Assembly: GCF_020621385.1 (NCBI RefSeq)
Contig: NZ_JAESVA010000007.1
Location: 124,001 to 188,000, forward strand
DNA from: Acidisoma cellulosilyticum
GTDB taxonomy: Bacteria; Pseudomonadota; Alphaproteobacteria; Acetobacterales; Acetobacteraceae
Length of the DNA: 64,000 nucleotides
Direction: 5' to 3'
In this document: piece by piece, positions 50,859 to 64,000 of the stretch
Numbering within the stretch: position 1 is the first letter of the stretch
How the letters are laid out: each line of letters starts with the position of its first letter
Position numbers and translations under genes: made by a program
The notes under the pieces: model-generated
What the model was told of the DNA's origin: nothing
The model's input: the letters and a program-made list of their open reading frames with translations, nothing else
Database searches by the model: none

Positions 50859-50933
50859 CGGGTAGACCCGCGGAACAAGTCCGCGGGCGATACTTTTCTT
50901 CGTCATCCGCGCAGTCGTTGCGCGGACCTACCC
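50859..50933. repeat. palindromic intergenic repeat, family 2, clean pair
   Basis: Two intact elements in opposite orientation: CGGGTAGACCCGCGG-aacaagt-CCGCGGGCGATAC (50859-50893) and GTCATCCGCGC-agtcgtt-GCGCGGACCTACCC (50902-50933). The second overlaps the end of the minus-strand gene, whose TAG stop (CTA at 50928-50930) is part of the repeat. Confidence 0.8.
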
Positions 50934-52100
50934 GGTGGCGCTGGCGGAACGGGCCATGAACGCCAAAATCGCTTCGGCCCCGCGCTCCCCGGCCGGGGTT
51001 TCGGTCATCGAAAACGTCAAATCCCGTCGTAATTCTTGTGCAGTCTTGAACGCGTCCGGATTGGTGATCGCCCGGTCAAGCGCGGCCGGTAGCGCATCGA
51101 CACGGGTGATGACCTCGCCCAGCGACCAATGGCCGAAATCGGGGGAGGTTGCGCGATCCTCCCCGCCGGTATTGAAGAAGATCGCCGGACGCGGTTGCGC
51201 GATCCACTCATAGATCTGGCTTGAGACGTCGCCGAGATAGATATCGGCCGCGCGCGTATAGCTCATGTCGACGGAGCGCCGGCTGCCGGTATCGATGCGG
51301 ATGCGCGGATGATCGAGCAGCGTTTTCGGCAGGTTGCCACGCCAACCGATGCGCTTGTGGATGGGCGTGATATGAATCGCGCGCTTGAACAGCATGGTAT
51401 GCGGCGCGAAAATCAGGTTGAAGCGATCCTGTTGCGCGAACCAATCCAGCACGGCGCGTCCGAAGGGATAAAAGGACGAAATATGCGGATTGAAATGCGG
51501 ATTGTAGACGACCGTCGGCAGGTCGTTGTCAAAGAAGCGCTCGACCGGCCTTCCGAGCGCAATATCGAATTTGGGATAGCCGATGATGGCGTGGTTGTCT
51601 GGGGTGATCAGTCCCCCTGACAGCATCCGGTCCCGCACCTTCTCACCCGACAGCAGCACCAGGTCGAAATGGCGCGTGGTCTTGCGGAAGCCGGCCGCAC
51701 CGTCACCGGCGCCATGCGGGATATAGATCAGTTTCGGTGCGCTGACACCGAAGCGGGTGCGCAGCAACGTCGTCGTCGTCTCCGGCACGACGATGGCGTC
51801 GAAACTGCCGAGAAGGGTCGCATGTTCGCGTAAGATAGCGATGCGCTTGAAGGGCAAGACAGGCCGCAGCAGATGATCCGCCAAGCGGTTCGGCCAGCTG
51901 AGCGTCAGGTCATGGAAGGTGACGGCGGTGCCCGGCGCAGCGACGCCGGGCGCAATCAGACTCGCCGCCGTCTCTCGCTGCTCGGCGCTCGATGTCAGCA
52001 CATGCACATCGACACCACGCGCCGCGAGGGCGGAAGCCACCGGGATCGTATGCGGGATCTGGTGGACGGCATCGTGATTATAGAGGAAGGCGATCTTCAT
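50928..52100 (-). CDS. TagF-like / GT-B-fold polyol-phosphate or glycosyl transferase
   Basis: 390-residue soluble protein with a GT-B-like layout. It begins KIAFLYNHDAVHQIPHTIPVASALAARGVDVHVLTSS, and the C-terminal half contains YIPHGAGDG, YNPHFNPHISSFYPFGRAVLDWF, LIFAPHTMLF and DIYLGDVSSQIYEWIAQPRPAIFFN. The paired His motifs and DVSSQ-E segment are typical of CDP-glycerol glycerophosphotransferases (TagB/TagF), which move glycerol phosphate to a lipid-linked acceptor. Its start overlaps the stop of the GINT1-like gene (ATGA), so the two are one operon that diverges from the acyl carrier protein and serine palmitoyltransferase genes. A role in adding a headgroup to ceramide is inference. 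The stop codon lies in a repeat element. Confidence 0.68.
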   Translation of the reverse strand: MKIAFLYNHDAVHQIPHTIPVASALAARGVDVHVLTSSAEQRETAASLIAPGVAAPGTAVTFHDLTLSWPNRLADHLLRPVLPFKRIAILREHATLLGSFDAIVVPETTTTLLRTRFGVSAPKLIYIPHGAGDGAAGFRKTTRHFDLVLLSGEKVRDRMLSGGLITPDNHAIIGYPKFDIALGRPVERFFDNDLPTVVYNPHFNPHISSFYPFGRAVLDWFAQQDRFNLIFAPHTMLFKRAIHITPIHKRIGWRGNLPKTLLDHPRIRIDTGSRRSVDMSYTRAADIYLGDVSSQIYEWIAQPRPAIFFNTGGEDRATSPDFGHWSLGEVITRVDALPAALDRAITNPDAFKTAQELRRDLTFSMTETPAGERGAEAILAFMARSASATG

Positions 52101-52999
52101 GCGGCTTTCGCCAGCTTATGCCGAAGGATGTGATAGAGCCGAGACACCGTCGCCGGCAGCGAGGCATCCATCCGCTTGACGTCGAGCAGCGTCATCTCCC
52201 CCACGGCCGAGAGCGTATGCAACCCGTCCGTATAGGGTGTCATCCAGGCGGGCGCTTGCAATCCGTCGCGGTCTGTCGCGGCGAAGGCGGTCTCGTCGAG
52301 ATGCGCAATCTCCAGAAGACGGATCGCGGCGCCGTAGGTTCTGCGGCAATCCTGAACTGGTAGGATGATCGATCCACCTTGCAGGATCGGCGTGCCGCCC
52401 GGCCGCGCGCTGGCGATGTCGATATGCACCGGATTGCCGGGATGGAGATGCCAAGGTCCGGTCAGACGATCGGCATAGGCGATGTGAAGATGGCTCTGCT
52501 TCGCGCGCTTGCTGTGCGATGGCGCATAAAACAGCCACCAGCGGTCTTGCCAGAAGAAGGGCGTCGCATCGATGGCGGCCCCGTCCAGCGGGATCTGGCA
52601 CACGGCCTCCCATTCACCGGGAAACGTCTTGGCGCGGTAGAGCGTCAGCGTGCCGGACTGGAAGGCTTCCGGCAGCATCCAGATCTCCCCCTCCGCCTCG
52701 AACACGAAGGGGTAGGACAGATGCCAGGGTTCCCGCAGCACCGTGCGGCTGTCGAGCAGGGTCAATTGCGCATCATAGACAAGAAGGTCGATATAGCCCC
52801 GGCGGTCGCGATAGCTGAAACCTTCGGCGAAGACATGCAACAGGCCGTCGCGCCAGAGGCCGAAGGGATCGGCCCGGAAGGATTGCGCCGGCATTGCTGG
52901 CCCCCAGGTGACGCTTGGCTCATCAAACCCTTCCGCCAGGATCGCGGTCAGCGGGCGGTTGATGATCGCGACACGCCAAAGATCCATCGGCCGCAGCAT
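52097..52999 (-). CDS. GINT1 N-terminal-domain-like protein (beta-propeller glycosyl enzyme family)
   Basis: 300-residue protein resembling the N-terminal domain of plant glucosamine inositolphosphorylceramide transferase 1, a family also present in bacterial surface-glycan loci. Motifs: QSFRADPFGLWRDGLLHVFAEGF, REPWHLSYPFVFEAEGEIWMLPEAF, AIDATPFFWQDRWWLFYAPS, GPWHLHPGNPV, and GGSIILPVQDCRRTYGAAIRLLEI, typical five-bladed glycosidase-like repeats. The ATG at 52999 (MLRPMDLWRVAII) is preferred over an upstream start at 53032. It is first in an operon with the TagF-like gene, divergent from acp-spt. The link to sphingolipid glycosylation is suggestive because the domain name comes from a sphingolipid enzyme, but catalytic activity is unproven. 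Confidence 0.68.
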   Translation of the reverse strand: MLRPMDLWRVAIINRPLTAILAEGFDEPSVTWGPAMPAQSFRADPFGLWRDGLLHVFAEGFSYRDRRGYIDLLVYDAQLTLLDSRTVLREPWHLSYPFVFEAEGEIWMLPEAFQSGTLTLYRAKTFPGEWEAVCQIPLDGAAIDATPFFWQDRWWLFYAPSHSKRAKQSHLHIAYADRLTGPWHLHPGNPVHIDIASARPGGTPILQGGSIILPVQDCRRTYGAAIRLLEIAHLDETAFAATDRDGLQAPAWMTPYTDGLHTLSAVGEMTLLDVKRMDASLPATVSRLYHILRHKLAKAA

Positions 53000-53173
53000 T
53001 CTCGCCTCAATCCTTCCTTCGAGAGACCCCATCCTGAGGGCAAAGCGGGGGTCAGCGTGACGGTCGGAGACCCATGGCAGGGGTCAGGACCATGCATGTA
53101 CCGCTAGATGCGACCGACCGACATTCGTGATAGAGGAGATCCAGAAAATCGATAGGACTGTCCGTGTCATGCC

Positions 53174-53476
53174 ATGCGCACGGACGCTTTTAGTCATGGA
53201 GACAAGACCTTGCCCAGCGAAGAGGACGTCATCGCGACGATTGTCGCGGTAATCCGCACCCTGGACGGCGTGACCCCCGCCATGGCGGATGCCGTGACGC
53301 CCGAGACCAATATCCTGCGCGATCTCAGCCTCGATTCCATCGCGGTGATGGATTTCATCATGGAGCTGGAGACCGCCTTCAACACCGTCATTCCGCTGGA
53401 TACCGTGGCCGAAATCGCGACCGTCGGCGATCTCGCCCGGGCGATCACGACCGAACAGGCGCGGACTGCCGCCTGA
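53174..53476 (+). CDS. dedicated acyl carrier protein of the sphingolipid locus
   Basis: 100-residue acyl carrier protein. The phosphopantetheine attachment serine is in LSLDSIAVMD (Ser55), flanked by helices EEDVIATIVAVIRTLDGV and MELETAFNTVIPLDTVAEIATVGDLARAI. It is longer at the N-terminus than housekeeping AcpP; a TTG at 53210 could give a shorter form. It ends one base before the serine palmitoyltransferase start. In Caulobacter and related bacteria a dedicated ACP is encoded beside spt and carries the fatty acyl group that is condensed with serine. It is presumably charged by the fatty acyl-AMP ligase encoded at 62867. Confidence 0.88.
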   Translation: MRTDAFSHGDKTLPSEEDVIATIVAVIRTLDGVTPAMADAVTPETNILRDLSLDSIAVMDFIMELETAFNTVIPLDTVAEIATVGDLARAITTEQARTAA

Positions 53477-53477
53477 T

Positions 53478-54686
53478 ATGCTCGGAAAATATGCGCATCT
53501 CGCCCAGTCCCTGTCGGGACTGCGCGAGGCTGGCACCAATCCCTTCACCGTCGCCTTCGACGAGATTCTGTCGCCGACCACGGCGCGGCTGAACGGCCAG
53601 ACCGTCGTCCTGCTCGGGACCAATAACTATCTCGGCCTGACCTTCGATGAGAGCTGTATCGCGGCAGCGGTCTCGGCGCTTGAGACCGAAGGCACCGGCA
53701 CCACCGGGTCCCGCATCGCCAACGGCACCTATAGCGCGCATGTCGCGCTGGAAAAGCAGGTCGCCACATTCCTTGGCCGGCAGGATGCGATGGTCTTCAC
53801 GACCGGGTATCAGGCCAATCTTGGCATCATGGCGGCGTTGGCCGGGCGCGACGATCATCTTCTGCTCGATGCCGACAGCCATGCCAGCATCTATGACGGC
53901 TCGCGCCTCAGCGAAGCGCAGGTGACGCGATTCCGCCATAACGATCCGGACGACCTCTATCGCCGCTTGCGCTATCTGGCCGATAAGCCGGGCGACAAGC
54001 TGATCGTCGTCGAAGGCATCTACAGCATGCTGGGCGATGTGGCGCCCTTGGCCGAATTCGCTGCCGTGAAGCGCGAGACGGGCGCCTATCTTCTCGTCGA
54101 TGAGGCGCATTCGCTGGGTGTGCTCGGCGAACACGGCCGTGGCCTTCAGGAAGTGGCGGGCGTCGAGGCGGATGTCGATTTCGTCGTCGGCACCTTCAGC
54201 AAAAGCCTAGGCAGCATCGGCGGCTTCTGTGCCTCCGACATGCCGGGTTTCGAGGTGCTGCGCGTCGCCTCCCGCGCCTATATGTTCACGGCCTCGATGC
54301 CGCCGTCGATCGCGGCGAGCGTGACCCAGGCTTTCGAGGTGATGGCCGCGCGTCCGGACCTGCGGCAGGCGCTGACGCGGAACGCGGAGGCTCTGTATCA
54401 GGGTCTGTCCAAGGCCGGGTTCCGCCTGGGCCCGACGCCGAGCCCGATCGTCTCCGTCCGGCTGACCAAGCCGGAGCTTGCGGTCGCCTTCTGGAACAAG
54501 CTTCTGGCGCGCGGGCTTTACGTCAATCTGGCTTTGCCGCCGGCGACGCCGGCGCGCGAATCTCTTCTTCGCACCAGTGTCAGCGCCGCCCATAGCGAAG
54601 CCGATATCCGCTTCGCGGTGGACGCCATCGCCTCCGTCGGCGAGGAGCTCGGTATCATCGGGGCGACGGTCGAAGCGGCGGAATAA
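53478..54686 (+). CDS. spt: serine palmitoyltransferase (alpha-oxoamine synthase family)
   Basis: 402-residue pyridoxal-phosphate enzyme that condenses serine with a long acyl chain to 3-ketosphinganine, the first step of sphingolipid synthesis. The cofactor lysine is in TFSKSLGSIGG (Lys242), the stacking histidine in DADSHASIYDG (His135) and the DEAHSLG motif (208-214) is intact. The segment GTGTTGSRIANGTYSAHVALE and the lack of a glycine/acetyl-CoA pattern favour serine palmitoyltransferase over KBL or ALA synthase, and the neighbouring acyl carrier protein supports it. It is soluble and about the length of the Sphingomonas enzyme. The Tam41-like gene ends tail-to-tail two bases away. Confidence 0.9.
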   Translation: MLGKYAHLAQSLSGLREAGTNPFTVAFDEILSPTTARLNGQTVVLLGTNNYLGLTFDESCIAAAVSALETEGTGTTGSRIANGTYSAHVALEKQVATFLGRQDAMVFTTGYQANLGIMAALAGRDDHLLLDADSHASIYDGSRLSEAQVTRFRHNDPDDLYRRLRYLADKPGDKLIVVEGIYSMLGDVAPLAEFAAVKRETGAYLLVDEAHSLGVLGEHGRGLQEVAGVEADVDFVVGTFSKSLGSIGGFCASDMPGFEVLRVASRAYMFTASMPPSIAASVTQAFEVMAARPDLRQALTRNAEALYQGLSKAGFRLGPTPSPIVSVRLTKPELAVAFWNKLLARGLYVNLALPPATPARESLLRTSVSAAHSEADIRFAVDAIASVGEELGIIGATVEAAE

Positions 54687-54688
54687 GG

Positions 54689-55576
54689 CTAGCTGAGCGC
54701 GCCTATCCTTCTGAGCCGCCAGAGTAGGAACGGGGCGGCGAGGATCGGGTGGCGGCGCTGCCAGGGCGAAAGCTCCAGGCGGACGCCGCTATGGCGCTGC
54801 AGCTTCCACAGCAGATAATCGGCGCCGCCGGCGAAGGTGAAGGCGGCTTTCACCAGCCGCAGCAGATTGAGCGGCTTGCCGCAGAAGCGGCGCAATGCCC
54901 AGCCGCCGAACGGGGCCTTGGCCGCCGGATGCCCTCCGGCATCGAACAGCCCGTCGAACCAGGCGGCATTGGTCTCATACAGCACGCTGGGCTGGTTCGC
55001 TCGCTCCGGCCGCAGCTCCGCCCGATAGGTTTCGCGGAAGAGCCCTTCCCAGACAGTACCCGCGTTTTCGGCGGCCGGGTTCAGCCAACGTCCCCAGGCG
55101 AGCGCGGTGCCGGCGGCTTGCGTCAGCAGGGCGGTCACGCGTTTTCGTGCCGCATCATCGCGTGCATAGAGGAGAGACGACGGCTGGGAAAAGCGCGTCC
55201 AGATCGTGGTGTCGAGCGAGCCTGGCCGCACGCGACGGTCGAATTGGCGGACCGAGAGCATGGCGACCTTGGCGCGCAATCCATCAGTCCCGGCCCCAGC
55301 GGCCATCAGCATGACATTGGGCGGCAGTGCCGCATTCATCAGCGCCGGAAAGGCGCGCCGATGAAAGGCGCGATGGCCATCGTACAGAATATAAAGATCG
55401 ATGAGACCGGTCAGATCGCCCGTCCGACGGCAGGAGCCATAGAACAGAATAGCCGCAACCGCTTTGCCTCGGCTGTCGAGAATCTCCTGGACCAAGGCGG
55501 CCATTGCCGGTGGGGCAGGGCGGTCCAGTTCCGCCGCGATCAAAGGCCCGAGCGCCTGTTCGGCGCCCACGGTCAT
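54689..55576 (-). CDS. Tam41-like nucleotidyltransferase-fold protein of the sphingolipid locus
   Basis: 295-residue protein with a nucleotidyltransferase-type motif: ILFYGSCRRTGDLTGLIDLYILYDG (residues ~44-67), i.e. GS followed by a D-x-[DY]-like acidic strand, as in mitochondrial-type phosphatidate cytidylyltransferase Tam41. The rest has VMLMAAGAGTDGLRAKVAMLSVRQF and an arginine-rich C-terminus with amphipathic helices (FLLWRLRRIG) that may touch the membrane. The second acidic position reads LIDLYI, so the usual DxD is D-L-Y and activity may differ. The start is uncertain (55576, or 55636 overlapping the kinase gene). It follows the lipid kinase on the same strand and probably acts on the phosphorylated lipid or its headgroup. 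Confidence 0.65.
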   Translation of the reverse strand: MTVGAEQALGPLIAAELDRPAPPAMAALVQEILDSRGKAVAAILFYGSCRRTGDLTGLIDLYILYDGHRAFHRRAFPALMNAALPPNVMLMAAGAGTDGLRAKVAMLSVRQFDRRVRPGSLDTTIWTRFSQPSSLLYARDDAARKRVTALLTQAAGTALAWGRWLNPAAENAGTVWEGLFRETYRAELRPERANQPSVLYETNAAWFDGLFDAGGHPAAKAPFGGWALRRFCGKPLNLLRLVKAAFTFAGGADYLLWKLQRHSGVRLELSPWQRRHPILAAPFLLWRLRRIGALS

Positions 55577-55586
55577 AAGGCGGATG

Positions 55587-56567
55587 TCACGGGGCGACGA
55601 CCGTGACGCTGGCGGCCGCAGAGAGAAGAACACCACCCGAGCGGGGCTCGAAAGCCTCCCCGTCCAGAATAAAAGGCTGGGTCAGCATCAGGCGCAGCGC
55701 ATTGCCCCGACCGGAGCGGTAGCCGCCGCGTAGCATCCAGGGTTTGGGGCGGCGCATCAGCATATTGGTGAGCCCGGCGACAAGGCGCCGGGGCGAGGCG
55801 TCGATATCCAGCCAGCGGATGCCGCCCTGACCCTTGCCCCAGAAAGGCCAGAGGCCGAGCATGAGGCTGTCCAGCGTTGTCGCCATCACCAGCATGCGCT
55901 GACCGTCGATCGCTGGGCGATCACCCACCGTCAAGGTCATCGGCCAGCCCTGTTTGATGGCGGGGTCGCGGCCGAGAATGGCGCGCAGCGCCGTCAAAGT
56001 GACGGTCGCGGCGACCTCCGCCCCATGGCGCAGCCCGCCGCCGCGCACGGCCGCATTGGCGGTGCGCTTGACCTCGGTGAAGCTCGCCGCGCCGAACAGG
56101 AAGCCGAAGATGGGGTCGCGCGCCGGTTCGTCCGGCCAGGAGACCTGCAGCAGCGGGCAGACCTTGCGGGTCAGCCGGTTCTGAGCTGCCGCGATGAGAA
56201 TCTTTTCGAGGGCGGCGCTGTCGCTGCCGGCACTGCCCAGAACGCGGGCCGCCAGATTGGTATTGCCAGCCGATAGAATGGCGATCTCAGGCATGTCGTC
56301 GGGATAGGCGTGCGGCATGGCGCTGATGACGTCGCGCAAAGTGCCGTCGCCGCCGCAGACGATCAGCAGCGTCACACCGTCCGCCGCGAATTGGGCGAGG
56401 GTCTTGTGCAGTTCGGGCAGACCATCCGGAGAGGCTGCCTGCACTTCAGGGTGGCGTGCCAGGACCGCGGTGAAGTCGGCCGGCTTCGTCTTGTTGGCGT
56501 GGCTGCGCGGATTGATAATCAACCCGATGCGCCGGGGCGCCTGCGTAGAAGAGGTTATCTGACCCAA
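55587..56567 (-). CDS. diacylglycerol/ceramide kinase-family lipid kinase
   Basis: 326-residue protein of the DAGK catalytic-domain family. IGLIINPRSHANK is the N-terminal strand, VCGGDGTLRDVISAM (GGDGT at 72-76) the ATP-binding signature, IAILSAGNTNLAARVLG the NDLAR-type motif, and the C-terminal domain contains GILLSAAASV-like strands and IDGEAFEP-like FILDGEAFEP. Bacterial relatives phosphorylate diacylglycerol, undecaprenol or ceramide. In this locus the likely substrate is ceramide or sphinganine; a kinase of this family does that job in the Caulobacter ceramide phosphoglycerate pathway. The start is TTG at 56567, whose last base abuts the ATG of the divergent phosphoesterase. Confidence 0.82.
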   Translation of the reverse strand: MGQITSSTQAPRRIGLIINPRSHANKTKPADFTAVLARHPEVQAASPDGLPELHKTLAQFAADGVTLLIVCGGDGTLRDVISAMPHAYPDDMPEIAILSAGNTNLAARVLGSAGSDSAALEKILIAAAQNRLTRKVCPLLQVSWPDEPARDPIFGFLFGAASFTEVKRTANAAVRGGGLRHGAEVAATVTLTALRAILGRDPAIKQGWPMTLTVGDRPAIDGQRMLVMATTLDSLMLGLWPFWGKGQGGIRWLDIDASPRRLVAGLTNMLMRRPKPWMLRGGYRSGRGNALRLMLTQPFILDGEAFEPRSGGVLLSAAASVTVVAP

Positions 56568-57499
56568 TGCAATTCAGCCTTGCCCATCTCTCCGACCTGC
56601 ATCTGCCGCCCCCGGCGGAAGCGATGTCGATGCGGGATCGAAATCTGAAAAGCGTCCTTGCCAAACTGTCTTGGCACAGGAAGCGCAAACGAATTTACAC
56701 ACTGCACCCGGCCGCGGCTTTACTTGCCGATATCGCGGCGCAGGCACCCGATCATATTGCCCTGACAGGAGACATCACGAATTTCGGCCATCCGGCGGAA
56801 TTCGTGGCGGCTAGACGCTATCTCCAACAGATAGGAGCACCGCATGATCTTTCGGTAGTTCCCGGCAATCATGATCGGACAGTTCCGTTGCCATGGCAAG
56901 ATAGTCTTGAGCAATGGCAAGACTGGATGTGCAGCGATGCAGAAGAAGCCGTCTTGAGCGAGGGGGGATTTCCTTTCCTGAGACGTAGAGGCGATCTGGC
57001 GATTATCGGGGTCGATTCGGCCATTTTGACCCCGGTCTTTAAGGCCTATGGCGAGATCGGCATGACTCAAATGCACAGGCTGGCAGAGCTGCTGGAGGCA
57101 ACCGGACGCCAGGGGCTGTTCCGTGCCGTCCTCATCCATCATCCCCCGACCATGAGCCTGGGCGGGGAACGCAAGGCACTGCGCGACCGGGCTGCGCTAT
57201 GCGCGGTTTTGGCGCAGCATGGTGCTGAGCTCATGATTTCAGGCCATCACCACATCACTCGATTGGATGGAGTGCAGGGGCCCAGCTATAGAATTCCCTC
57301 TTTCGGCGTGCCGGCGGCTTTGGCGAGCAAAGCGCGGCCCGAATGGGCTGGTTGGCATCTGCATCGCATCGAAAGGGTGGAGAGCGGTTGGCATCTCACC
57401 TCCGCCCTGCGTCGCTACAATCCGATACGCAATGTGTTTGAGCCTGGTGGGGAGTGGAGCTTCAGGCTTCCCGTCAGAACGGATGCAATGACATGGTGA
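56567..57499 (+). CDS. calcineurin-like metallophosphoesterase of the sphingolipid locus
   Basis: 310-residue two-metal phosphoesterase. All five motifs are visible: SDLHL (Asp10, His12), ALTGDITNFGHP, VVPGNHDRT, VLIHHPP and MISGHHHITR. It hydrolyses a phosphate mono- or diester; in this position the candidates are a nucleotide-linked headgroup donor or a lipid phosphate. No signal peptide, so it is cytoplasmic. Its ATG overlaps the divergent kinase start codon by one base, leaving no space for promoters between them, and its 3' end overlaps the convergent DUF2141 gene by 26 bases. The Tam41-like/kinase/phosphoesterase trio resembles the set I recall beside spt in Caulobacter. Confidence 0.85.
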   Translation: MQFSLAHLSDLHLPPPAEAMSMRDRNLKSVLAKLSWHRKRKRIYTLHPAAALLADIAAQAPDHIALTGDITNFGHPAEFVAARRYLQQIGAPHDLSVVPGNHDRTVPLPWQDSLEQWQDWMCSDAEEAVLSEGGFPFLRRRGDLAIIGVDSAILTPVFKAYGEIGMTQMHRLAELLEATGRQGLFRAVLIHHPPTMSLGGERKALRDRAALCAVLAQHGAELMISGHHHITRLDGVQGPSYRIPSFGVPAALASKARPEWAGWHLHRIERVESGWHLTSALRRYNPIRNVFEPGGEWSFRLPVRTDAMTW

Positions 57500-57977
57500 T
57501 GTGGGCACCTGCCGCCGTCACGGTGAAGGCGACGGCGTGAAAGCCCGGCGGCGCCAGCAGATTGCGCGGATTGTTGGAGAAACCGTAATCCTCGGCCGGC
57601 AATCCGAGGAAAGTCTTGTCGAAGCGGTGGTTGTTATTGGCGTCGTCATAGATCGCCACCGCATAGGTGCCAGGACCCGAGAGCGCGAAACAGCCCTGCA
57701 CGCTATTCGCTGTGACCGGCACGCGCATGATGTCGATGCTGCCGTGATGGGCCAGGAATTTGGCCGGGTCGTCGCCATAGAGCGTGAAGGTGATATTGCC
57801 CCCGGCATGGCGGATATTGGTGACGGTCATCAGCAGGCGCGGCGCCGAGGGCGACACGCCGGGCGCGTCACAGGCGACGCCGGACTCTGTCGCCGCCAAG
57901 GCGGGAAAATCGCCTGAAACGCCTAACAGAAGCCCAATCAGACAAGCCATAAGCCAGCGGCCGGGCGCAAATGTCAT
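57474..57977 (-). CDS. DUF2141 periplasmic protein
   Basis: 167 residues. A signal peptide spans about residues 1-29 (MACLIGLLLGVSGDFPALAA). The mature domain shows the DUF2141 pattern: VTNIRHAGGNITFTLYGDDPAKFL, VQGCFALSGPGTYAVAIYDDANNNHRFDKTFLGLPAEDYGFSNNPRN and a final beta strand. Function unknown. The DDANNNHRFD acidic loop looks able to bind calcium, which is my reading only. It lies in the sphingolipid locus between the phosphoesterase and the LptF-like gene, and being periplasmic could take part in lipid export or surface assembly. Its end overlaps the convergent phosphoesterase gene by 26 bases. Confidence 0.8.
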   Translation of the reverse strand: MTFAPGRWLMACLIGLLLGVSGDFPALAATESGVACDAPGVSPSAPRLLMTVTNIRHAGGNITFTLYGDDPAKFLAHHGSIDIMRVPVTANSVQGCFALSGPGTYAVAIYDDANNNHRFDKTFLGLPAEDYGFSNNPRNLLAPPGFHAVAFTVTAAGAHITMSLHPF

Positions 57978-58211
57978 CGGAACTCAGCCTCGAGGCAAGA
58001 ATACATGACGCGGATCACGCGACTGAATGATATTGCGACGCAATAGCATTGGAGGTCATAACAGTCAGCACACCAGCGCATGATGGCGGGCAGTCTCGCC
58101 GCCGTGACCTTTTTCTGCAAGAAGACCTTATCATCATCGGGCGCCCGGCGATCCATCGCCCTCGGCACCGACGCCGACTGGAATGAAACGGTAGATCTCT
58201 TGGGCTTTTCT

Positions 58212-59444
58212 GTGCGCGCCCCTCACGCGCGGTCCCCCCGCACGCTGGAACGCTATCTTCTGTCGCTCTGCGCCCGCCCTTTCGCGGCGACGTTGCTCGT
58301 GGTGCTGCCCGCGCTGCTGCTGGAGCGCCTGCTGAGGCTGTTCAACCTGTTGGCCGACCAGAACGTGCCGGCCCAGTTCGTCGGCCGCATGCTGGTCGAT
58401 CTGGTGCCGCAATACCTGGGTCTGGCCCTGCCGGCGGCGCTTTTCCTGGGTATCTACTTCGTCATCGCCCGGATGAGCGCCGATAACGAGTTGGAGGCGA
58501 TGCAGAATGCCGGCCTGTCCATGGTCTGGATCAGCCGTCCCTTCTTCATCCTCGGCTTCCTGCTCATGCTGGTCGCCTATGGGCTCTACGGCTATGTCCA
58601 GCCGCTGGCGCGCTACGCCTTCCGCGAGGCCTTTTGGGCCGCGACCGAAAGCGGCTGGAACGCGACCATTCCACCCGGCCAGATCATCCATGTCTCGAAA
58701 AACCTCGTCGTCACGGCCGATGGCGCCGAGCGCGGCACCGGCGCGCTGCGGCATGTGCTCGCCTTCCAGCGCAAGACGGATGGGACCGAGCAGGTGACGA
58801 CCGGCGTCACCGGAACCGTCTCCCTGGTCGGCCGGGGCGCCGATGTCCTGCTCACGCTCGACAACGGCAAGCGGCTGGATCTGAAGCCCGACGGCACGAT
58901 CGGCACCGAGACCTCGGCGACCTCGGCGATGGAGCGCCCCTTCGTGCTGCCGATGCGCGCCTTTCGCGCGCGGGGCAGTGACGAGCGCGAGATGACGACC
59001 GGCGAACTTTGGTCCGCGCGCCACGACAAGAATCCTCCGCAGCCGCTGCGCCGGATGAACGGTGAGCTCTACAGCCGCATCATCCGGTCGATCTCCATGG
59101 CGGTGCTGCCTCTGATGGCCGTTTCCATCGGCATTTCGGCCAAGCGCGCCAAGCGCCAATACGGCATCAGCGTCGGTTTCCTGATCCTGATCCTGTACGA
59201 TCACGCGATCCAACTGACGGCCGCGCTCGGCACGGCCGGGCTGATCGATCCGCGTGCGCCGCTCTGGGCGATTTTCGTTGTTTTTAGCGCTTTCTGCTTC
59301 TGGATGTTCCGCCGCGCCTCCCGTCATACCAGCGAGGGGCCGCTCGATCCGCTCTTCGCCCGGATGGAAGATGCGGCGTCCTTCTGTCTGCGCGGCGTGC
59401 GATGGCTGGGCGGCGGTTGGGCTCGGAAGCAGCCGGCCCGATGA
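58212..59444 (+). CDS. LptF/YjgP-family permease in the sphingolipid locus
   Basis: About 410-residue inner-membrane protein of the LptF/LptG family, which normally forms the half-transporter that extracts lipopolysaccharide for the LptB ATPase. The N-terminus RTLERYLLSLCARPFAATLLVVLPALLLERLLRLFNLLAD, the coupling-helix region ARMSADNELEAMQNAGLSMVWI and the central periplasmic jellyroll domain (about 150-280) are present. The C-terminal helices contain RIIRSISMAVLPLMAVSIGIS. The start is unclear: GTG 58212 gives a typical N-terminus, but the frame is open to ATG 58080. The gene overlaps the LptG-like gene by four bases. No lptB is in the window. Its position beside spt suggests a sphingolipid substrate. 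Confidence 0.85.
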   Translation: MRAPHARSPRTLERYLLSLCARPFAATLLVVLPALLLERLLRLFNLLADQNVPAQFVGRMLVDLVPQYLGLALPAALFLGIYFVIARMSADNELEAMQNAGLSMVWISRPFFILGFLLMLVAYGLYGYVQPLARYAFREAFWAATESGWNATIPPGQIIHVSKNLVVTADGAERGTGALRHVLAFQRKTDGTEQVTTGVTGTVSLVGRGADVLLTLDNGKRLDLKPDGTIGTETSATSAMERPFVLPMRAFRARGSDEREMTTGELWSARHDKNPPQPLRRMNGELYSRIIRSISMAVLPLMAVSIGISAKRAKRQYGISVGFLILILYDHAIQLTAALGTAGLIDPRAPLWAIFVVFSAFCFWMFRRASRHTSEGPLDPLFARMEDAASFCLRGVRWLGGGWARKQPAR

Positions 59445-60502
59445 TCCGCGCCTATCTCACCAGGCTTTTCCTCGGCCGGATGCTGGCGGCGCTGATCGGC
59501 CTCTCGGCCATGCTTCAGATCCTCAATCTGCTGGAGAATGCTGGCACCATCTTCGCCCATGGCGGCTTTCGGGACATCCTGCATTTCATCGCGCTGCAAC
59601 TGCCCGCCATCGTCAGCGAAATGCTGCCGCTCTCAGTCCTGATCGGCGCGCTGATGGCCTTCCGCCGCCTTGCGGCGGATCTGGAGGTCACGACGCTGCG
59701 CGGCGCGGGGATGAGCCTGTGGCAGATGGTGGGCGCGCTGATGCCCGTCTGTCTGGTCCTTTGCGTCTTGCAATTCGCCCTGCAGAACGAGGTGGCGCCG
59801 AAGGCCGACCGCGCTTTCGCCAATTGGTGGGCGGCGACCATACCGCCCGCCGCGGATAGTCCGCCGCCGCGCATCTGGCTGCGCGCCGGCAGCGACGTTG
59901 CCGCCGTCGACAGCGTTTCCACGGACGGGCGCACGCTGCGCGGTGTGATGGTGCTGGAGCGTGACGGGCAGGGTGAGATCAGCCTGCGGCTGGACGCGCC
60001 GATCGCCCATTTCGGGCCGGCCGGCTGGGTGCTGCAGCAGGTCCGCGTCACCCGGCCCGAGGCCGCGCGGGTGCAGGATGTGGCGACGATGCCCTGGCCG
60101 CAGGGACCCGAGCCCGCCAATATGCAGGCGCTCGCCTGGCCCACGGATAGCATCACTTTGGGCCGCATCCTCGCCGTGCTGCACGGGCATTGGGCAGGCT
60201 CGCAAGGGCTTGGCTATTACCGGACGGAATTGCAGGCGGCCTTCGCCGCTTTGCTCAGCCCGATGATCATGCTGCTGCTGGCGGCCCCCGTTCTGCTCGC
60301 CCCGCCGCGCTCCACCGGCAATACGCGGGCGACCGCGACCGGCCTGGCGTTGGGCCTTGGCTTCGCTGCCTCGGCCGGGCTACTGAATGCCTTCGGCCAG
60401 TCCGGCGCGCTGCCGCCCTGGCTCGCCGGCTGGATGGCGGCGCTGTTCTTTTTCGCTTTCGCCTGCCTGCGTTTGAGCCAGGCGGACGACAGCGAAGCAT
60501 GA
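59441..60502 (+). CDS. LptG-family permease in the sphingolipid locus
   Basis: 353-residue partner of the LptF-like protein. It starts IRAYLTRLFLGRMLAALIGLSAMLQILNLLEN, contains the coupling segment MAFRRLAADLEVTTLRGAGMSLWQM, a periplasmic beta domain (about 125-250, with RIWLRAGSDVAAVDSVSTDGRTLRGVMVLERD) and three C-terminal helices ending ADDSEA. ATG 59441 overlaps the upstream stop as ATGA. Conventional lptFG genes usually sit with lptD or pepA; here they lie inside a sphingolipid biosynthesis locus, so this pair is probably a specialised copy rather than the housekeeping LPS exporter. A search of the rest of the genome would be needed to confirm a second pair. Confidence 0.85.
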   Translation: MIRAYLTRLFLGRMLAALIGLSAMLQILNLLENAGTIFAHGGFRDILHFIALQLPAIVSEMLPLSVLIGALMAFRRLAADLEVTTLRGAGMSLWQMVGALMPVCLVLCVLQFALQNEVAPKADRAFANWWAATIPPAADSPPPRIWLRAGSDVAAVDSVSTDGRTLRGVMVLERDGQGEISLRLDAPIAHFGPAGWVLQQVRVTRPEAARVQDVATMPWPQGPEPANMQALAWPTDSITLGRILAVLHGHWAGSQGLGYYRTELQAAFAALLSPMIMLLLAAPVLLAPPRSTGNTRATATGLALGLGFAASAGLLNAFGQSGALPPWLAGWMAALFFFAFACLRLSQADDSEA

Positions 60503-60581: not shown

Positions 60582-60890
60582 ATGCACAGGCGCTGGCGGA
60601 AGGAGGGCCGAGATATCGATCTCGGCCGCATGCTGTTGAAGGACCCTTGTCCGGCCGATGCCGTTCATCCAACCATCCCATTTGATGTTGTGCTGGCATT
60701 TATCGCGGGCGTCTGTGAGATTGGACTAGCGCCCGTCCTGCGGCGTCTGACGGATGCCCATCGCCTCATGAGTCGTTTCTGCGCTAGAACGGTGGAATTC
60801 TTCGTCGCGCGCGTCATGTCTGGTCCTATGCCGGGACGCTGTTACGCCTCCAGACGCAACCCGCTGTTCTGCTCCGGCGAGGCCAATTGA
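60582..60890 (+). CDS. doubtful 102-residue frame with a good ribosome site
   Basis: Open frame in the 390-base gap between the LptG-like gene and the ceramide-synthase-like gene. In its favour: GAGGAGAAGG lies at the right distance before ATG 60582 and the frame runs up to the next gene. Against: no family resemblance, arginine/cysteine-rich composition (RRWRKEGRD, SRFCARTVEFF) unlike a folded protein, and codon use poorer than its neighbours. A TTGACA at about 60532 could be a promoter -35 element for it or for the downstream gene. It could be a leader peptide or simply noise. Confidence 0.25.
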   Translation: MHRRWRKEGRDIDLGRMLLKDPCPADAVHPTIPFDVVLAFIAGVCEIGLAPVLRRLTDAHRLMSRFCARTVEFFVARVMSGPMPGRCYASRRNPLFCSGEAN

Positions 60891-60892
60891 TC

Positions 60893-62047
60893 ATGGCAAG
60901 CACGACATTCGGCGATATCGAGATTCTGTCCGTGACGGGGCCTGCGCTGCTCAAGCGCTTCATCCGTCTGCCCGACCGCATCATGGCGCCGGATCCAAAC
61001 TACATCCCGCCGCTGCATTCGGAACGGCAGGCGGCGCTGACGCCCAAGGGCAATCCCTTCTTCGGCCATGCCGACGCGGCTTTCTGGCTGGCGCGAAAGA
61101 ACGGCGTCGATGTCGGCCGTATCTCCGCCCAGATCGACCATCTGACGAAGCCCGAGCCTGAGGCGCCGATCGGCAATTTCGGCATGCTGTCGGCCATCGA
61201 CGACAAGGCGGTCTTCGCGGCGCTGCTGGCGACCGCCGAGGCCTGGCTCGCCGAGCGTGGCATCAAGCGTGTGCAGGGACCGTTCAGCCTTTCGATTAAT
61301 GAGGAATCGGGGCTGCTGATCGACGGTTTCGATACGCCGCCGATGCTGATGATGCCGCATGACGCGTCCTATGTGGCCGCGCATATCGACGCTGCCGGCT
61401 ATGGCAAGATCCGCGATCTTTATGCCTATCTCTGCGACACCACGGCCGCCTTGCCGCCGCGTTCGGCCGCCATGGTGGCGCGCGGATTGCCGAGCAACGT
61501 CACCCTGCGCCCGATGCAGTTCAAGACGCTGAAGCAGGACATCGCCTCCCTCGTCAGCATCTTCAACGATGCCTGGGCGACCCATTGGGGCTTCGTGCCG
61601 ATCACCGAGCCCGAGGTCGATCACATGGCCAAGGCCATGCGCCCGCTGCTGCATGAAAAGCTGATCTGGTTCGCCGATGTCGACGGCGAGCCGGCAGCCT
61701 TCGGCCTCTGCCTGCCCGATCTGAATGCCGCGATCCGCGATCTTTCGGGCAGCCTATTGCCGCTGGGCTGGGCCAAGCTGCTGTGGCGCCTGAAGGTTTC
61801 AGGCGTGCCGACCGCGCGCGTGCCCCTGATGGGCGTGCGCAAGCGTTACGGCGAAGGCATGCTCGGCCGGCTGCTGGCGTTGCATGTGGTGGAATCCCTG
61901 CGCCGCGAGGCCTTGGCGAAGGGCATCAAGGCGGTCGAAATGTCCTGGATTCTTGAGGACAATCTGCCGATGCGGCATTTGGCGGAAGCGGTTGGCGGCC
62001 GCCAGTACAAAACCTACCGCGTCTACGAGAAAACCCTCACGGCATGA
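60893..62047 (+). CDS. ceramide-synthase-like GNAT-type N-acyltransferase (bCerS/YghO family)
   Basis: 384-residue protein of the YghO-like N-acyltransferase family, to which the bacterial ceramide synthase of Caulobacter belongs. Motifs: FIRLPDRIMAPDPNYIPPLHSERQAALTPKGNPFFGHADAAFWLARKNGVDVGRISAQIDH at the N-terminus, the GNAT-like IGNFGMLSAIDDKAVFAALLATAEAWLAERGIKRVQGPFSLSINEESGLLIDGF, and the C-terminal second fold WATHWGFVPITEPEVDHMAKAM with AVEMSWILEDNLPMRHLAEAVGGR. It would N-acylate 3-ketosphinganine or sphinganine to ceramide. ATG 60893 is preferred over TTG 60887. It overlaps the next gene by four bases. Confidence 0.82.
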   Translation: MASTTFGDIEILSVTGPALLKRFIRLPDRIMAPDPNYIPPLHSERQAALTPKGNPFFGHADAAFWLARKNGVDVGRISAQIDHLTKPEPEAPIGNFGMLSAIDDKAVFAALLATAEAWLAERGIKRVQGPFSLSINEESGLLIDGFDTPPMLMMPHDASYVAAHIDAAGYGKIRDLYAYLCDTTAALPPRSAAMVARGLPSNVTLRPMQFKTLKQDIASLVSIFNDAWATHWGFVPITEPEVDHMAKAMRPLLHEKLIWFADVDGEPAAFGLCLPDLNAAIRDLSGSLLPLGWAKLLWRLKVSGVPTARVPLMGVRKRYGEGMLGRLLALHVVESLRREALAKGIKAVEMSWILEDNLPMRHLAEAVGGRQYKTYRVYEKTLTA

Positions 62048-62823
62048 CCGGCCCGGCCACACTGACGGCCCTGATTCTGGCCGGCAGCCGCGACGGGGCT
62101 GCCGATCCGCTGGCGATCCAGGGTGGCGTCTCGCATAAGGCGCTGCTGCCCGTGGACGGCACGCCGATGGTGCTGCGGGTCATTCGCGCGCTGCAACAGA
62201 GCCCTGCCGTCGGTCGAATAATCGTCGTCTGCGAGCGCAAGGATCTGCTCGATGACTTGCCCGAAGCCGCCTCTGTTGCGGTCCGTCACGCCGAGACTTC
62301 ACCAAGCGCCAGTGTCGCTGCCGCTTTGGCAGAATTCGGCACGCCGTTGCTTGTGACGACGGCGGATCATGCGCTGTTGACGCCTGAGATCGTAAAATCT
62401 TTTCTCTCCCTGGCGCCATCCAGTGCCGACGCTGTGGCCGCAGTGGCACGGTCGGAGATTATTTGCGCGGCTTACCCTGATACGCGACGCACATGGCTGC
62501 GTCTGCGCGACGGGCTGTTCAGCGGCTGCAACCTCTTCCTGTTGCAGCACGAAAAAGCCAGTCTTGCCGTCGTTTTTTGGCGAAAATTGGAAGCCCATCG
62601 GAAGCATCCCTGGACCATGGCGCGACTGATCGGTTTATCGGCGCTCGTCGGTTATGCATTCAAAACCTTGACAATGGACAAGGCAACTAGGCTTCTTAGC
62701 CGTAGAAGTGGTGCTTCACTTGCGGTTATTACTCTTCCTTTCGCGGATGCGGCGGTCGACGTCGATAAACCCGCGGATCTCTTCCTTGTCGAAAGGACTC
62801 TGGCGGCGCGACGTGCGGCCTGA
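62044..62823 (+). CDS. NTP-transferase (MobA-like fold) protein of the sphingolipid locus
   Basis: 259-residue nucleotidyltransferase with a GT-A-like Rossmann fold. The N-terminal signature is LTALILAGSRDG...HKALLPVDGTPMVLRVIRAL, the metal/nucleotide region VTTADHALLTPEIV (a T-A-D-H in place of the usual TGD) and the C-terminal FADAAVDVDKPADLFLVE is the typical final strand-helix. Relatives activate a sugar, polyol or lipid headgroup as an NDP derivative. The ATGA overlap with the ceramide-synthase-like gene points to coupled expression. It may provide an activated headgroup donor (for example CDP-glycerol-like) for the TagF-like transferase; this is inference. Confidence 0.8.
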   Translation: MTGPATLTALILAGSRDGAADPLAIQGGVSHKALLPVDGTPMVLRVIRALQQSPAVGRIIVVCERKDLLDDLPEAASVAVRHAETSPSASVAAALAEFGTPLLVTTADHALLTPEIVKSFLSLAPSSADAVAAVARSEIICAAYPDTRRTWLRLRDGLFSGCNLFLLQHEKASLAVVFWRKLEAHRKHPWTMARLIGLSALVGYAFKTLTMDKATRLLSRRSGASLAVITLPFADAAVDVDKPADLFLVERTLAARRAA

Positions 62824-62866: not shown

Positions 62867-64000
62867 TTGGATCTCCATCTTTCGACTGGACCGACTCCCA
62901 CGCTGAGCGGGCTTGCTCTGCGTGCCGGTGATTTCAGAACTTTGCCCGAAGCGCTCGACTATGCGGCGGAGGGTCTGACTGGTCTCAACTTCTACTCCGC
63001 GCAGGGCGAGCTCAGCGAAGCGCTCGGCTATCGCGGTCTGCGCCACGATGCGATCGATCTTGCCTATCGGCTGATGGGCCTGGGTCTCACCCGCGGCGAC
63101 AGCGTCGCGATCATCGCCGAGACCAGTCCGAATTTCGTGCGGATCTTTTTCGCCTGCCAATATGCGGGGCTGGTGCCCGTGCCGATGCCGCTGCCCTTCG
63201 CCTTCGGCGGGCGCGAGACCTATATCGCGCATATCGAGCGGCTGGCGGATGAGGCTGAAGCGCGCGCGCTTTTCGCCCCCACGACGCTGATTTCCTGGCT
63301 GGCGCCGATGGCCGAGGCCCGCAGCATGCGCCTGTGCGGCACCGTCGCCGATCTCGCGGAGATGGAGATACAGGACGTCGTCCTGCCGGAGATTAGGCCC
63401 GAGGATACCGCCTATCTGCAATTTTCCTCCGGCAGCACGCGCTTCCCGAAGGGCGTCGTCATCCAGCAGAAAGCGCTGATGGCCAATGCCGCCGGCATTT
63501 TGGCCCAGGGCATGGAAATCGGCCCGCAGGACCGTGCCGTCTCCTGGTTGCCGCTGTATCACGACATGGGTCTGGTCGGCTTCCTGCTCAGCCCGCTCTG
63601 CGGTCAGGTGACCGTCGATTTCATCGCGACGCAGGATTTCGCGCGCCGCCCGCGCCTATGGTTGTCTCTGATCTCCCAGAACCGCGGTACGGTGTCCTAT
63701 TCCCCGAGCTTCGGTTTCGATCTTTGTACCCGCCGCCAGCGGACCATCGACCGTGACAGCCTCGATCTGTCGACCTGGCGCATCGCGGGCATTGGCGGCG
63801 ATATGATCCGCCCGGCCGTGCTCTCCCAATTCGCCGATACCTTTGGCAGCTGCGGTTTCAAGCCGGAGGCTTTCCTGCCGAGCTACGGCATGGCCGAGGC
63901 GACGCTTGCCATCAGCTTCGCGCCGGTGGGCCTGGGCATCGAGACCGAGACGATCGATCTTGACCGGCTGGAGCAGGACGGACTGGCCATGCCGCCGCAG
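62867..64000 (+). CDS. fatty acyl-AMP ligase / acyl-ACP synthetase, 3' end outside window
   Basis: The frame is open from TTG 62867 (an in-frame TAG lies at 62849-62851) to the right edge, giving 378 residues of an adenylate-forming enzyme. AMP-binding motifs: YLQFSSGSTRFPKGVVIQ, LPLYHDMGLVGFLLSPL and PSYGMAEATLAI, the pattern of fatty acyl-AMP ligases and acyl-ACP synthetases of about 550-600 residues. GGATCACC precedes the TTG; no ATG or GTG occurs before the first conserved helix. In sphingolipid loci an acyl-ACP synthetase loads the dedicated acyl carrier protein, here encoded at 53174, for serine palmitoyltransferase. The missing C-terminus should carry the lysine-containing small domain. 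Confidence 0.85.
   Translation, partial: MDLHLSTGPTPTLSGLALRAGDFRTLPEALDYAAEGLTGLNFYSAQGELSEALGYRGLRHDAIDLAYRLMGLGLTRGDSVAIIAETSPNFVRIFFACQYAGLVPVPMPLPFAFGGRETYIAHIERLADEAEARALFAPTTLISWLAPMAEARSMRLCGTVADLAEMEIQDVVLPEIRPEDTAYLQFSSGSTRFPKGVVIQQKALMANAAGILAQGMEIGPQDRAVSWLPLYHDMGLVGFLLSPLCGQVTVDFIATQDFARRPRLWLSLISQNRGTVSYSPSFGFDLCTRRQRTIDRDSLDLSTWRIAGIGGDMIRPAVLSQFADTFGSCGFKPEAFLPSYGMAEATLAISFAPVGLGIETETIDLDRLEQDGLAMPPQ

Follow-up and report, generated by a model that had tools for sequence, protein, structure and literature searches.

Why should permeases of the LptF/LptG family, for whose structurally solved members LPS is the named substrate, be encoded among sphingolipid genes? The question is raised by a 64,000-nt stretch of the Acidisoma cellulosilyticum genome (hereafter, the window), and it touches on a wider problem, since the way in which bacterial sphingolipids cross the cell envelope was stated to be unsolved in 2024 (PMC11087976, PMC11324152), with no sphingolipid flippase or transporter identified by then (PMC11087976). 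The two genes, denoted here LptF2 (58212-59444, plus strand, GTG start, 410 aa) and LptG2 (59441-60502, plus strand, 353 aa), match PF03739 with E-values of 3.7e-56 and 2.4e-64, respectively, over their full length (191 and 218 bits, against a Pfam gathering score of 27.9), and their best NCBIfam models are TIGR04407 (LptF) and TIGR04408 (LptG). LptF2 comprises 6 TM helices and a periplasmic beta-jellyroll (residues 158-243), and its nearest named relative comes from Acidisoma silvae (Acetobacteraceae; 87%). For this gene, an upstream start at 58080 was passed over and the GTG at 58212 was taken. The most likely start of LptG2 is the ATG at 59441, which produces a 4-nt overlap with LptF2 (ATGA, 59441-59444); a -4 overlap is also the commonest F/G spacing among homologous loci (38 cases). 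AlphaFold2 models of both LptF2 (pLDDT 88.4) and LptG2 (pLDDT 95.6) adopt the Lpt fold, and in Foldseek comparisons all significant PDB matches of LptF2 were LptF or LptG; those of LptG2 were Lpt chains as well, with LptG at the top. A chance origin of the pair is excluded by the E-values, by these confident models and by the gene order, which is conserved in 79 of the 80 homologous loci described below.

The neighborhood is a sphingolipid cluster. Upstream of the pair lie genes for an AcpR-like acyl carrier protein (53174-53476, plus strand; PF00550, 1.6e-11) and, beside it, serine palmitoyltransferase (spt; 53478-54686, plus strand; NF047599, 640.6 bits against a cut-off of 500), followed by a protein without a Pfam family in the position of Caulobacter CC_1161 (54689-55636, minus strand; our family A3), a DAGK-family lipid kinase assigned by position as CC_1160-like, the ceramide-kinase position (55587-56567, minus strand; PF00781, 4.6e-14), and a calcineurin-like phosphoesterase in a CC_1158-like position (56567-57499, plus strand; PF00149, 1.6e-11). 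The pair itself is flanked by a DUF2141 protein in a CC_1157-like position (57474-57977, minus strand; PF09912, 3e-26), which is probably unrelated, and by a GNAT protein (60887-62047, plus strand; PF00583, 1.7e-6) that we assign by its CC_1154-like position as the candidate bacterial ceramide synthase. Farther downstream are a CpgD-like nucleotidyltransferase in the CC_1152 position (62044-62823, plus strand; PF12804, 3.6e-18) and the open reading frame of an AasR-like acyl-CoA/ACP synthetase that extends beyond the window end (62867-64000, plus strand; full length at L009:868-2619). This order (spt, CC_1161-like gene, lipid kinase, phosphoesterase, LptF2, LptG2, ceramide synthase position, CC_1152-like gene) is shared with Caulobacter CC_1162-CC_1152 (PMC11324152), the gene-by-gene orthology being derived from order and domains. 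Two minus-strand genes adjoining spt on its other side (50928-53032; 390 and 311 aa) look transferase-like by eye only, and in several loci from Acetobacteraceae relatives are encoded close to the cluster. No lptD-like gene was found near the pair at this locus. Thus, the initial annotation, which had placed two overlapping LptF and LptG genes inside a sphingolipid locus and apart from LPS genes, agrees with the coordinates, the PF03739 matches and the location of the housekeeping pair, which resides elsewhere, beside lptD.

This arrangement is not peculiar to Acidisoma. We scanned GTDB genome contigs with an LptF2 profile, using a motif derived from the alignment, and retained the best 80 of 291 loci, a choice that biases the set toward the spt-linked type, so that the scan shows linkage and not prevalence. 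Among these best 80 of 291, sphingolipid genes occurred within 10 kb of the LptF2-type gene in 79 loci, the sole exception being a contig of 3.8 kb; Spt was present in 69, the CC_1161-like gene and DAGK in 71 each, the phosphoesterase in 70, the CpgD-like protein and the AasR-like synthetase in 64 each, and the ceramide synthase-like GNAT protein in 59. Neither lptD nor housekeeping lptFG was found in the flanks of any of the 80.

Within its own genome (G000; 6.0 Mb, 98.5% complete), the window pair is one of three. Six PF03739 genes form a pair beside lptD on contig C1 (LptF1/LptG1), the window pair on C7 and a divergent pair on C4, so that the idea of the window pair as the only lptFG is rejected and the second pair near lptD that the initial annotation called for is present. 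The third pair (L008:7877-10083; contig C4:38882-41070) has an inositol-3-phosphate synthase gene about 4 kb away and, in its vicinity, genes for a GT4 glycosyltransferase, a Wzx-like flippase and a radical SAM protein; by profile, its LptG3 fits the spt type better (169 vs 100 bits). The remaining components are single: one LptB above the cut-off (C7:4097-4807), accompanied at its locus by a single LptC and a single LptA, as well as one LptD and one LpxC. LptB was counted at an E-value cut-off of 1e-72; a looser one takes in 151 ABC proteins. Because the coupling-helix glutamates are present in the LptF and the LptG of every one of the three pairs, the economical reading is that they share the single LptB; of the two options previously considered, sharing or replacing LptB, one LptB per genome and conserved LptB-contacting residues favor the former.

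The window pair and the housekeeping pair belong to the same family and occur in the same genome, presumably served by the same LptB, but they fall into separate clades. In a 73-row tree (IQ-TREE, LG+C20), for which bootstrap values had not fully settled, all 14 of 14 spt-linked LptF formed one clade (100/99) and the lptD-linked LptF another (100/94), while the 14 spt-linked LptG fell into one set (98/91) that included one long-branch row from genome G022, apart from housekeeping LptG (100/99). Group labels changed 5 times on this tree compared with 24 in shuffles, and with type-specific profiles most ordinary members of the spt type and of the housekeeping type were told apart by a margin of more than 200 bits. 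The tree thus bears out the expectation that spt-linked LptF and LptG stand apart from the lptD-linked copies, with the window pair outside the housekeeping permeases. The pairs classified from spt-negative genomes were of the housekeeping type, save an odd extra pair in G022, which lies in an operon-like run (L094:4996-15368) encoding an AOS-family (BioF/Spt-like) synthase, DUF4833, inositol-3-phosphate synthase, an SDR protein, a CdsA-like CTP-transferase, the divergent LptFG pair, GT4, an FGGY kinase and a CDP-alcohol phosphatidyltransferase. The gene content resembles that of an inositol-lipid locus equipped with an LptFG pair of its own, perhaps recruited separately.

Comparison with the LptB2FG LPS exporters of E. 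coli, Shigella and Klebsiella (PDB 6mhu, 6s8h, 5l75) revealed what the two types have in common. Despite roughly 11-24% identity in fold alignments, the window pair shares with them PF03739, the 6-TM plus beta-jellyroll architecture, adjacent F and G genes, the coupling-helix glutamates and the loop-2 arginines. We aligned 91 spt-type and 21 housekeeping LptF and 80 spt-type and 20 housekeeping LptG (E. coli numbering). LptF E84, which contacts LptB through the coupling helix (PMC5548808), corresponds to LptF2 Glu93 (codon 58488-58490, plus strand) and is invariant in 91/91 spt-type and 21/21 housekeeping sequences; LptG E88 corresponds to LptG2 Glu82 (codon 59684-59686, plus strand) and is likewise invariant (80/80 and 20/20). 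The other LptB-contacting positions are conserved in the spt type as well (LptF Y6, 91/91, and R292, 89/91; LptG Y10, 78/80, and R301, 77/80), and the window pair has equivalents of both R292 and R301. The differences lie elsewhere. The spt type is diagnosed by an acidic-basic dipeptide in LptF TM1 (91/91; LptF2 Glu38-Arg39, 58323-58328, plus strand), at the position of E. coli Q29-K30, which in housekeeping copies is mostly T-Q, with a basic second residue in 2 of 21. Moreover, the basic pair LptG K40/K41, which in Shigella contacts the 4'-phosphate and inner core of LPS (PMC6744409), is present in 17/20 and 19/20 housekeeping sequences but only in 8/80 and 7/80 of the spt type, and is lost in the window pair. 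Given that K40E/K41E is tolerated in E. coli (PMC5548808), this loss is a marker of divergence and not proof of a substrate change. We used only these two lysines because the other phosphate contacts of E. coli LptG that we considered, K34, K62, R133 and R136, do not discriminate, not being basic in alphaproteobacterial housekeeping LptG either.

These shared features, namely PF03739 membership, the retained LptB interface and the precedent of LPS as the substrate of the solved relatives, would fit a second LPS permease pair, devoted to modified LPS or to a particular condition and placed in the sphingolipid cluster by history. We consider this very unlikely in view of the linkage in all but one of the best 80 loci, the loss of the lysines on the LPS-phosphate side and the genomes without lpxC that keep only this type (below). 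Both proteins also miss the NCBIfam LPS equivalog cut-offs (LptF2, 186.6 vs 230 bits; LptG2, 208.3 vs 240 bits), a shortfall that is weak evidence alone, the TIGR04407/TIGR04408 scoring having covered the window proteins and no alphaproteobacterial LptF1/LptG1.

To see which pair is kept where, we surveyed 142 genomes of the host's class, roughly one per family, of which 17 encode Spt, 131 LptFG and 118 LpxC. The spt-type pair was present in 14 of the 17 spt-positive genomes, which, together with the locus scan, upholds the proposed co-occurrence of this subfamily with spt. Seven spt-positive genomes carry LpxC (G000, G026, G027, G079, G095, G123, G124); all seven have the housekeeping pair and six additionally have the spt type, which was not found in G079. 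Ten lack LpxC, and eight of these (G012, G037, G039, G058, G076, G080, G093, G131; each at least 99% complete) encode exactly one LptFG pair, always of the spt type, along with one LptD and one LptB. Accordingly, among spt-positive genomes with LptFG, LptF1/LptG1 occurred in 7/7 with LpxC vs 0/8 without (Fisher p = 1.6e-4); this value is uncorrected for kinship, but the lpxC label requires at least 3 changes on the LptFG2 tree. This split and the retention of LptB and LptD indicate that with lpxC loss LptF1/LptG1 goes and LptF2/LptG2 stays, with the caveat that a missing LpxC stands in for missing LPS as a proxy only. Among lpxC-negative genomes of at least 95% completeness, some LptFG was kept by 8/9 with spt vs 3/7 without (p = 0.11), which is only a weak difference, and the force of the survey lies in which type stays.

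The other two lpxC-negative spt-positive genomes carry no detected LptFG. In G071 (82% complete, fragmented), LptB and LptD are present and no LptFG was found; in G066 (L074; 5.4 Mb, one contig), none of LpxC, LptFG, LptB, LptC and LptD was found, making it a sphingolipid producer apparently without Lpt, and the CC_1161-like headgroup gene is missing from among its ceramide genes. Separately, G059 (L041), G062 and G134, all at least 95% complete, have LptFG (housekeeping type in G059) with no LpxC or Spt detected, which may point to a further role of Lpt outside LPS export or to an LpxC of divergent sequence.

Which lipid, then, would the pair carry? Of the 142 genomes, 14 have the CC_1161-like gene, and every one of these is spt-positive; the gene is present in 13 of the 14 genomes with LptFG2. 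G012 has the pair without the gene, and G071 has the gene without detected LptFG. In G079 and G066, spt and ceramide genes are present, and both the CC_1161-like gene and LptFG2 are absent. Because the two co-occur and are jointly missing there, the permeases seem to go with the phosphate headgroup branch, and LptFG2 tracks the phosphosphingolipid headgroup genes more tightly than spt alone, a pattern that is suggestive only (p = 0.06 within spt-positive genomes, small numbers). The same tracking of CC_1161-like and DAGK genes, along with the two genes adjoining spt at 50928-53032, could be read to mean that the pair exports another product of the headgroup genes, for example, a glycerophosphate-type glycolipid, with ceramide as a bystander; we give this hardly any credence, given that every CC_1161-like gene found sits in an spt-positive genome and that in Caulobacter the making of ceramide phosphoglycerates requires these headgroup genes (PMC11324152). 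The most likely cargo would be anionic phosphosphingolipids of the ceramide-phosphoglycerate type.

The idea of sphingolipid transport by Lpt proteins has already been published for Caulobacter, where CC_1168, CC_1156 and CC_1155 were named LptC2, LptF2 and LptG2, phosphosphingolipid transport was proposed, untested, and CC_1156 (lptF2) mutants showed a cofitness of 0.60 with CC_1159 (PMC11324152). In the open literature we found nothing beyond that study on tested sphingolipid Lpt transport or on Sphingomonas LptD, although subscription papers may exist. The window pair, of the same family as CC_1156/CC_1155 but from a different lineage, is a further case with strong comparative support. What this analysis adds is the distribution of pair types among genomes without lpxC, a single LptB common to the pairs, a residue signature and an association with headgroup genes. 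The tree, the linkage and the lpxC-negative genomes all support the earlier suggestion of a paralogous pair dedicated to sphingolipid, and we infer that LptF2 and LptG2 are probably exporter permeases working through the Lpt chassis, with substrate, direction and use of LptC, LptA and LptD predicted from comparative data. They would make up the membrane-embedded part of an ABC transporter for complex sphingolipids; where LPS is also made, LptF1/LptG1 would load LPS onto the same chassis, and where LPS has been lost, LptF2/LptG2 would be the only permeases and the whole bridge would serve sphingolipid.

The involvement of LptA, LptC and LptD is deduced from their single copies and co-retention, and here an alternative has to be weighed, namely, that LptB2F2G2 extracts sphingolipid but bypasses the LptA-LptD bridge, handing its cargo to a dedicated LptC2, to another carrier or to enzymes of the periplasm. 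For this reading speak the periplasmic reduction of ceramide by CerR (PMC11087976), the second LptC reported from Caulobacter (PMC11324152) and the lack of an LptC match to PF06835 in G058 and G131, two of the eight genomes without lpxC, which is perhaps owing to the low sensitivity of that profile. However, LptD and LptB are kept in all eight, and in contrast to Caulobacter, no second LptC was detected near spt in the window genome, whose single PF06835 match lies beside lptA and lptB, although a divergent LptC2 could be missed by this profile. Furthermore, some species with the phosphosphingolipid cluster lack CC_1168 (PMC11324152), and we therefore do not treat LptC2 as essential to the Caulobacter-type pair. 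Overall, we regard transfer to a different acceptor as unlikely and favor delivery along the Lpt bridge.

More broadly, Lpt might be a general lipid-delivery chassis, in which one LptB-C-A-D set accepts exchangeable LptFG cassettes, each for one class of lipid. Sphingolipid bacteria that lack LPS would then use the entire bridge, LptD included, for sphingolipid only, and the third Acidisoma pair and the G022 pair would serve further lipids; we advance this generalization tentatively, as somewhat doubtful in its full extent. The retention of the spt-type pair together with LptB and LptD in genomes without lpxC leads to the prediction that the LPS bridge can carry sphingolipid and that the permease pair sets the substrate, and it implies that Lpt genes alone are no proof that a genome makes LPS.
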